64,000 nucleotides of DNA from an uncultured Bacteroidota bacterium (GTDB lineage Bacteria; Bacteroidota; Bacteroidia; Chitinophagales; Chitinophagaceae). The notes under the pieces are model-generated. The model saw nothing but the letters and a program-made list of their open reading frames with translations. It ran no database searches and was not told the DNA's origin. The translations under genes were made by a program, and so were the position numbers. The stretch covers positions 62,001 to 126,000 of the forward strand of contig CAIJXT010000031.1 in assembly GCA_903824665.1 (NCBI GenBank), written 5' to 3'. Positions 661 through 37,121 of the stretch are shown here, piece by piece. Within the stretch, counting starts at the first letter, position 1, and each line of letters starts with the position of its first letter.

Positions 661-757
661 TTTTGGCGCGGTTTTTGTGGCATATGTTACATAGCCACTG
701 GCATCAAATATCTGCTTTTTCACCATGGCAGCAACTGCGCAAAAAGTGCGCAAAAAT
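661..757 (+). repeat. Dispersed intergenic module, copy 1 (plus orientation)
   Basis: The module has a left block containing GGTTTTTGTGGCAT (670-683), 40 unconserved bases, then CATGGCAGCAA (724-734), then two TGCGCA palindromes starting at 736 and 747 and followed by A-runs. The same blocks at the same spacing occur on the minus strand at 37121-37025. In the left block, 661-683 differs from its counterpart by one base in 23. The 40-base middle is conserved in length but hardly in sequence. Confidence 0.75.
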
Positions 758-1153
758 AAAAATCTATAATGCTGATAATCAGCCATTTGCAGTTTTTCAT
801 TTTTTTGCTGAGCAAGTGCGCAATTTTGTTTTTGAAGCATTTTTAGGGATACTTCCCTGCCTGGCATTTACCAGCTGGCACAAAATTTCTGACACTGTTT
901 TATTGGCAGAATAACTACTATCAGGATTTTTGTTACAGCCATCGGCGAAAAAGCAACTGTCCCGCCGGCACCGGGCAAAAAGCCAAAAACAGGATTATCA
1001 GAAAAAAAGTGCAATCGGTTTTGCAATGCATAGTGGGCAAAAGTGCGCAATTTTTGCGCAAAAATAGATGCTGTCAATATTTACAAATAGCTGCAAATCA
1101 TTGAGTTAAATGATTTACGTGCATACCCAAAAAATTATTGCGCACAGTGCGCA
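736..1153. repeat. TGCGCA palindrome array 1
   Basis: TGCGCA occurs at 736, 747, 817, 1044, 1055, 1139 and 1148, seven times in about 420 bp, where roughly one per 4 kb is expected by chance. Two pairs (736/747 and 1044/1055) are spaced exactly 11 bp, about one helical turn, with A/T-only or nearly A/T-only bases between and after. Most copies are preceded by A(G/C)TGCGCA, often within AGCAAGTGCGCAA. This could be a protein-binding array, a structured RNA or a non-autonomous repeat; nothing in the sequence decides which. Confidence 0.75.
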
Positions 1154-36378: not shown

Positions 36379-36625
36379 GCAATAAATTTATCTTTTAGAA
36401 AGATTAGCCAAGGCTAAAAATTCAATTTCACAGATTGGTAACCACCACCGCTGGTTATGGGACGGTTTTGCACCAGCCTACTCTGCCCTGAATGCCCACT
36501 GATACAGAGATGGCCCAACATCAATCGGCAAACTTTTGCCGCCTGCCTTTTTGGCTGCCGAAGGAGCCAATGCAGTTCCGCATGGGCCCAGGCAGAAAGT
36601 AACGCCAGCGTGGAAATGATGGTTT

Positions 36626-37046
36626 TGCGCACTTTGGTGCATAATTTTTGAAAATGAGCAATTTCGACATTATCATTTGAAATTCAACTGGTTATAGTAT
36701 TTTATATTTTCTATTTTTGCGCACTTTTTGCGCACTTGCTTCCCATGACTCTATTGCCTGTGTACTGCCGAAGGGCCTCCGTGATGTTGCATCTGGGTAA
36801 TGAAAAATCAATTATCGCGCAATCTGTGAAAGTAGCACTGCATTTTCCGGTTATGTCCGGCTTCTTACTTTTTCTCATGCCTGTTGCCGGAAAATTTTAC
36901 AGGATGCTCTATGCCCAAGCTCGCAAATTTTGTTTTTTGCGCACTTTTGTGTGCAAATTCCGGTTGTGTACAAAACAATACTAAGCAATTGGTATTCATC
37001 ACTTTACACCACACACAATCTTACATTTTTGCGCAAAAATTGCGCA
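36626..37046. repeat. TGCGCA palindrome array 2
   Basis: TGCGCA occurs at 36626, 36718, 36729, 36938, 37030 and 37041. The pairs 36718/36729 and 37030/37041 are spaced exactly 11 bp, as in array 1. On the minus strand each pair follows AGCAAG, preceded by CATGGC or CATGGGA, so the unit reads toward the barrel gene just as array 1 reads toward tnaA. A related TGTGCA at 36950 is a degenerate copy. Confidence 0.75.
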
Positions 37047-37121
37047 CTTGCTGCCATGAAAAATAATTGCTATGTCTAAAATTGTAGCATGCAAATAGAT
37101 GCCACAAAAACCGAGCCAAAA
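37025..37121 (-). repeat. Dispersed intergenic module, copy 2 (minus orientation)
   Basis: Read on the minus strand from 37121: a block with GGTTTTTGTGGCAT (ending at 37099), 40 bases, CATGGCAGCAA (from 37058), then two TGCGCA sites. The order and spacing match module copy 1 at 661-757; both inter-block gaps are 40 bases. The left blocks share 22 of 23 bases. Confidence 0.75.

Follow-up and report, generated by a model that had tools for sequence, protein, structure and literature searches.

The window, a stretch of 64,000 nucleotides from an uncultured bacterium assigned by contig matches to the genus Flavipsychrobacter, contains four modules built from the hexamer TGCGCA, arranged in two blocks. 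TGCGCA was found at positions 736, 747, 817, 1044, 1055, 1139 and 1148 in the first block and at 36626, 36718, 36729, 36938, 37030 and 37041 in the second, in full agreement with the coordinates of the original prediction, and the 11 bp spacing that it gave for four pairs of these was true of all four. The first block holds module 1 (724–827) and module 2 (1032–1157) on the plus strand, while module 3 (36621–36746) and module 4 (36933–37058) form the second block on the minus strand. The blocks had been described as two inverted copies of one module; the opposite strands were confirmed, but each block consists of two modules and not one. Module 1 belongs to a short class, with its left TGCGCA-N5-TGCGCA pair at 736–752 (offsets 0 and 11) and its last TGCGCA at 817–822 (offset 81). 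A site resembling that of IHF at 777–789, which agrees with the IHF consensus at eight of nine positions, overlaps the palindrome CTGATAATCAG at 772–782, and a left block, box A (GGCGCGGTTTTTGTGGC), precedes the module at 665–681. The other three modules are of a long class. Module 2 has its left pair at 1044–1060, an IHF-like site at 1096–1108 (8/9 positions) and a right-hand TGCGCA-N3-TGCGCA at 1139–1153, giving right boxes at offsets 95 and 104. In module 3 the pair is at 36718–36734, the last TGCGCA at 36626–36631 and the IHF-like site at 36670–36682 (7/9 positions); in module 4 they are at 37030–37046, 36938–36943 and 36982–36994 (8/9 positions), with a further box A at 37101–37117 on the minus strand. 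All four IHF-like sites were placed by eye. The single word TGCGCA is in mild excess across the window, with 35 occurrences compared to a shuffled mean of 24.3 (sd 5.0), a count reached by 5 of 100 shuffles.

The two blocks are members of a large repeat family, because the genome from which the window is taken (G000; 4.73 Mb, 99.4% complete) contains TGCGCA-N5-TGCGCA at 117 sites compared to 0 for the reversed control pattern, and because a BLAST search of this genome with positions 661–1160 gave 60 places. The suggestion of a dispersed element was therefore borne out, with more than 100 copies genome-wide that lie mostly outside genes. The pair takes the form TGCGCAAAAANTGCGCA on one strand at 112 of the 117 sites (55 forward, 57 reverse). 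Reading 111 of the sites in context, with site C30:201624, the sole mixed pair, taken as plus since its strand was not clear by the rule used, revealed a third exact TGCGCA in 107, at offset 80–82 (31 modules) or 102–105 (76 modules) from the first base of the pair. This third box had played no part in selecting the sites. The modules thus have repeated boxes in helical register, at offsets 0, 11 and then 80–82 or 102–105, in the manner of a cosB-type site. Three of the remaining four modules fit neither size class and one has TGAGCA as its last box. Between the short and the long class the length changes by about 22 bp and the position of the centre by 11. An extra right-hand box 9–10 bp ahead of the last is present in 29 modules (10/31 short, 19/76 long). 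When eight periods were tried on 162 offsets of the downstream boxes, the best was 10.5 bp with a vector length of 0.71, the neighbouring periods of 10 and 11 giving 0.69 and 0.67.

The consensus of the module centre is TTGATAATCAANNNNTTA. The IHF consensus from E. coli is WATCAANNNNTTR, and at the expected offset 91.6% of the 107 modules agree with it at seven or more of the nine positions. Elsewhere in the modules the share is 4.9% (maximum 17.8%), and in 200 shuffles of the interiors it is 5.3% (maximum 15.9%). For eight or more positions the values are 70.1% against 0.7% and 0.6%, and at all nine 26.2% against 0.2% and 0.1%. At the level of the consensus, a putative IHF site is therefore placed between the boxes, as in a cosB-type site. 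Outside the boxes and the centre the interior of the long class is variable, with 0.1–0.7 bits at most positions; the short class is less diverged than the long, as measured on 17 short sequences. The conserved left and right blocks separated by a 40-base gap that the original prediction described are real. The right block comprises CATGGCAGCAA and the TGCGCA pair itself, and the left block is the box A present in 21 of 111 modules, in 20 of them 70–71 bp before the pair.

The modules are often closely grouped, 49 of the 111 forming 25 neighbour pairs that are 179–335 bp apart, of which the window holds two. The orientation is the same in 24 of the 25 pairs, and the 25th includes the site of ambiguous strand. 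The Bacteroidetes-type promoter word TAnnTTTG occurs within 1 of 111 modules in the forward direction and 26 of 111 in reverse. Several other strings were observed close to modules. TTTC[GA]GGA lies within 160 bp upstream of 13 of the 111, and TGTAAACCTATTTCGGGACGAGGCA-like strings precede several (loci L001, L007, L008, L022 and L045). By eye, a second repeat with a hairpin like GTGTGGCACACTTCCAAAGTGTGCCACAC adjoins several modules, with hairpins of this type at C1:73.6 kb, C15:270.8 kb, C19:172.2–172.4 kb and C30:201.6–201.9 kb of the same genome (L001, L118, L122, L136).

TGCGCA pairs are able to fold as hairpins, and the modules could in principle act as a structured RNA or a transcription terminator; a small RNA had also been suggested. 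RNAalifold was applied to 72 long and 32 short aligned modules. The one structure obtained was the left-pair hairpin, whose lack of variation follows from its use in selecting the sites, and no compensatory pairs were found in either set. The right-hand hairpin is followed by ATTT in only 8 of 111 modules and no Rfam match was obtained in the window. The lack of covariation and of an Rfam match led to the rejection of this explanation, which is very improbable, and because covariation is absent the constraint on the module is one on DNA and not on RNA. Nor are the boxes accounted for by a coding constraint, as the 22 bp difference between the classes is not a multiple of three and as a gene in a relative (L207) has its stop codon inside the left pair. 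Palindromic ends around a spacer and more than 100 mostly intergenic copies would also be consistent with a REPIN-like repeat moved by a RAYT transposase. The REPs are GTAG-tagged hairpins, whereas the module ends are TGCGCA boxes, and a search for PF01797 that was positive in 5 of 14 control genomes gave no match in this 99.4% complete genome, which contradicts a REPIN/RAYT system and makes it hardly credible. Integron attC sites were also considered and were dropped by eye.

The placement of the modules relative to genes was examined for 92 of the 111, omitting those within an open reading frame or near an edge; the neighbours are crude open reading frame calls and not annotation. The right-hand gene is on the strand of the module in 65 of 92 cases (p 9e-5), with a median of 234 bp to its start, while for the left-hand gene the figure is 52 of 92 (p 0.25). 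The flanking genes are convergent in 18 and divergent in 31 of the 92, and in 9 both neighbours are opposed to the module. The orientation toward the downstream gene is a tilt and not a rule. This tilt would fit better with a transcriptional role, and it is mainly because of it that a regulatory role is kept as a possibility. NtrC-type activators bind dyads of about 17 bp, and the TGCGCA pair might be a 17 bp dyad operator which, together with the IHF site, controls the downstream gene through the TerS-like protein described below or another regulator. Beyond the tilt, a module alike in place and orientation before one gene, ychF, in several genomes is consistent with such operators. Against them are the modules between convergent genes and those opposing both neighbours, flanking genes that appear unrelated by eye at 35 module loci, and modules at the 3′ ends of the TerS-like genes. 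Only 2 sigma-54-type promoter words were counted in the stretches downstream of 111 modules (mean 0.1 and maximum 2 in shuffles), and a sigma-54 enhancer is not supported as a general rule. Taken together, an operator function seems unlikely. Of the regulator-binding array that the original prediction considered, the geometry of a protein-DNA complex stood, with its 11 bp pair, IHF-like centre and phased third box; a role in transcription is favoured by the co-directional right-hand genes but opposed by the convergent sites and by the 3′-end modules of all 11 close paralogs of the TerS-like gene.

The distribution of the module among relatives was determined using a profile, R1, which was built solely from G000 with 72 of its 76 long modules, excluding three at offset 105 and one near-duplicate. 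Eight of the 11 modules at paralogs are in the training set, as are the three long modules of the window, so that their R1 matches arise by construction. Of the 35 genomes available for the genus, G000 included, 29 have modules at E ≤0.01, which extends the family beyond the 117 pair sites of its own genome. At least 10 modules were counted in 13 genomes (at least 100 in G000), 2–9 in 10 and one in 6, some of these last being near the threshold of R1. No R1 module match was found in 6 of the 35, and G153, G167, G168, G172 and G179 possess TerS-like genes and gave no R1 module match. The same anatomy is seen in four relatives (G154, G157, G163, G169), in which 16 distinct modules were read from loci that have both the pair and the centre, with frames counted from an extra upstream box removed. 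Their centre starts at offset 35–36 or 45–47 and their last box lies at 81–82 (4 modules), 90–92 (3 modules, all from G157) or 102–105 (9 modules), which corresponds to steps of about 11 bp. At L243 and L244 the last box is absent at the offsets 81–82, 90–92 and 102–105. In G097 (L068–L086, L272) the left pair is often widened to three or more TGCGCA-like boxes in steps of about 11 bp, and at several of its loci a TTGATAATCAAT-type palindrome lies ahead of the TGCGCA array.

In a sample of 147 genomes of the family, 145 of them from outside the genus, strong R1 matches were confined to the genus. Isolated matches in 23 of the 145 (best 1.7e-5, others 8e-4 to 1e-2) exceed the approximately 1.5 predicted by the nominal E-values, which are rough, and the plain TGCGCA pair occurs 0–3 times per genome outside the genus. 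The gene ychF was picked for its upstream module in G000, and 3 of 30 genomes, G000 included, have a module there with a similar position and an identical orientation, not counting weaker matches (E 0.004–0.03) near the gene elsewhere. Module positions can thus be common to genomes but mostly are not. Directly ahead of ychF in many genomes of the genus (L314–L343) is TTACCTTTGCGCAAATTTTCAAA, which resembles a Bacteroidetes promoter and has a TGCGCA outside any module.

Viral contigs in IMG/VR were searched for the module. A degenerate pair pattern gave at least 120 stretches, and most of the 80 that were profiled among the matches listed cover the left pair only. Of the two longest matches, L371 lacks a right box; in L363 a TGCGC follows at offset 104 as a third box, with no recognisable centre, and is probably a chance match given 80 loci. 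With a stricter pattern 11 contigs were obtained, each of which was profiled and matches over the left pair only, and another pattern gave none. Among the viral contigs examined, none was seen to carry a complete module.

One module inside an open reading frame led to a repeated gene, of which G000 has 11 copies at 87–100% identity to the query as well as more distant ones. The link to this terminase-like gene lies outside the window and was hence invisible to the original prediction. Direct reading located the pair and a right box at the 3′ end of all 11 close paralogs, and R1 matched the same 3′ ends on the strand of the gene in 11 of 11, 8 of which are in its training set. A weak R1 match lies directly after the gene in two of three divergent copies (E 7.7e-5 and 0.0039). 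The similarity among the 11 copies stops shortly past the module. Relatives of the gene were found in 34 of the 35 genomes of the genus, G000 included, with some species-specific expansions. A GTDB genome scan gave 33 TerS-like loci in records titled Flavipsychrobacter, Chitinophagaceae, Bacteroidetes or Bacteroidia, none of which is in the training set, and 20 of them, from nine assemblies, have an R1 match on the gene strand 76–367 nt past the matched domain. These 20 are all the gene-strand matches at E ≤0.05, and the association of gene and module therefore extends from G000 to nine other assemblies. In the other 13 loci no gene-strand match was found, two of these ending within 10 nt of the domain. 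At four loci of G171 (L301, L303, L304, L305) module-like matches are on the opposite strand, 460–900 nt downstream or, once, upstream, and in an additional test, on 20 loci, none of the five TerS-like paralogs of G158 had an R1 match.

The 11 paralogs are under strong purifying selection. Over the first 180 codons their 55 pairs have a median dN of 0.010, a dS of 0.38 and a dN/dS of 0.022, indicating that the copies are old and that the protein has been kept nearly unchanged over this region. For paralogs in G157 and G158 the dN/dS is 0.081 and 0.053 respectively (10 pairs each). In two of the 11 (L140 and L141) the matched stretch is interrupted by stop codons, all of which lie beyond codon 180. 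Upstream of TerS-like genes lie repeats of two kinds, one in tandem (about 130 bp) and one dispersed (about 260 bp), at L162:4500–4830 and L159:3600–4290; they are a further repeat family of this genome.

The protein matches Pfam Terminase_5 with 25.3 bits (cut-off 20.3) and PHROG 4151 with an E-value of 1.5e-16. The paralog of a congener matches PHROG 7344, annotated as terminase small subunit, over residues 3–138, and an annotated TerS of a Porphyromonas phage over residues 4–144 (E 4e-7), the gene for which is followed by those for the large terminase, adaptor and portal. These matches identify the family as a homolog of the small terminase. The G000 protein itself gave only E 0.2 with an annotated phage TerS, and its best phage match was an unannotated gut phage (7e-8). 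Its AlphaFold model is too weak to be relied on, with a mean pLDDT of 62.6 and a best fold match at E 2.4. The phage collection was searched with the protein sequence, and no confirmed relative was obtained when the TerS-like query was compared with the viral contig set. The best PADLOC match, mad1 (E 0.00046 and 0.0017), covers about 25 residues of helix-turn-helix and was not taken as evidence.

A single large-terminase place was found in G000, at C15:234155–235684, where the product is 46% identical to the TerL of the Porphyromonas phage (E 1.9e-115). Directly before it is another member of PHROG 4151, and after it are connector- and portal-like frames, the latter cut by the end of the stretch. 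Since the gene before TerL belongs to the same PHROG family, the solo genes are paralogs, with an added tail, of a TerS standing beside its TerL. None of the 11 module-bearing copies is near this one TerL; its neighbour is a different paralog, which has no R1 match at its own end. A module at C15:239255 is about 3 kb from the TerS-TerL genes, a distance that is unremarkable given 117 modules in 4.7 Mb. The region C15:230.6–236.2 kb (L308:18639–19994, L309:789–4202) was observed to contain a short phage-type head cluster of TerS, TerL, connector, portal-like and unknown phage family genes beside ordinary chromosomal genes, which could be a prophage remnant or a gene-transfer-type cluster.

The dispersal of 11 gene copies at different places, with similarity ending shortly past the module, would also be expected of a selfish element in which the TerS-like gene and its module (about 1.1 kb) form the full unit and the solo modules are non-autonomous offspring. 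The expansions in other species, and the presence of the ychF module in some genomes and its absence in others, point the same way. By eye, however, the conserved unit contains no transposase and its left end has no inverted repeat of the module; a target duplication could not be defined and no empty site could be aligned. The low dN/dS at a dS of 0.38 argues for old and maintained copies, although selection in cis would give the same result. Such an element is a tentative possibility that is compatible with the terminase-type reading favoured below, and it might be moved, again tentatively, by some recombinase or by packaging combined with recombination.

On balance, the modules are probably cosB/pac-like recognition sites of the TerS-like helix-turn-helix protein, bent by IHF or HU and dispersed on the chromosome. 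In each, a left pair of TGCGCA boxes, spaced by one helical turn, and one or two right-hand boxes would enclose a central IHF/HU-type bend site; the bend would fold the module and let a TerS-like oligomer grip both groups of boxes at once. This protein would be supplied by the multicopy gene that has the same module at its own 3′ end, much as the P22 pac lies inside the TerS gene, and the copies without a gene would be scattered sites, mostly intergenic. Binding by the TerS-like protein and bending by IHF/HU are proposed because the module shares its kinds of parts, in mirrored arrangement, and its type of neighbouring gene with cosB and pac. The candidate roles of the resulting complex are chromosome organisation or gene control, the packaging of chromosomal DNA by a resident or visiting TerL, and the spread of the unit itself. 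More doubtful is a stronger form of this proposal, in which 11 near-identical orphan TerS-like proteins assemble at over 100 sites of the cosB type, where they would either form a chromatin-like complex of bent and wrapped DNA or direct chromosomal DNA into particles of a phage or gene-transfer kind by means of the TerL of the same genome. One model of TerS binding has the DNA wrapped like a nucleosome around outward-facing helix-turn-helix domains (PMC9611059). In this form the gene would contain its own packaging signal, and both could be spread jointly by a helper particle. If the proposal is correct, a phage-type packaging-start site and its protein would be a standing part of a bacterial chromosome at more than 100 places, and the packaging machinery of phages would have a new path into chromosome biology or gene transfer. 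The more than 100 natural variants in two spacing classes would also make the poorly understood recognition of DNA by TerS accessible to testing.

No description of modules of this type, or of orphan TerS genes in dispersed copies, was found in the open-licence literature searched, and so far as these searches go the module family is undescribed; its parts resemble known things, while the combination does not. Satellites of the PICI/SaPI type carry small terminases and are similar in having a TerS apart from a full phage, but no island was recognised by eye around five gene copies inspected. REPIN/RAYT systems have many, mostly intergenic copies and a cognate protein family; the modules are likewise numerous, mostly between genes and associated with a protein family, but no RAYT was found in this genome and the linked gene is multicopy and TerS-like. 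The RIB elements of E. coli are dispersed IHF-binding repeats, and in RIB/BIME the IHF site is flanked by REP units. The module is also a dispersed repeat with an IHF-like site, but it lacks REP, its flanks are TGCGCA boxes and it is linked to a TerS-like gene. The layout also resembles that of lambda cosB, which comprises 120 bp containing three TerS sites, R3, R2 and R1, with the IHF site I1 between R3 and R2, where a bend is proposed to join R3 and R2 for a TerS dimer (PMC4669245). The module has a similar length of about 120 bp, repeated boxes, an IHF-type site between the groups and a TerS-type gene alongside. Several differences separate it from cosB: its boxes are palindromic TGCGCA hexamers, arranged as a left pair and one or two right-hand copies in a mirror of the lambda order, and it is present in more than 100 chromosomal copies without a known cosN, recognition by TerS being putative here. 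In P22 the recognition site, pac, is located within the TerS gene (PMC9611059), and the module similarly lies within or at the end of a TerS-type gene. The P22 pac is a 22-bp sequence, whereas the module extends over approximately 90–110 bp and is present in free copies as well.
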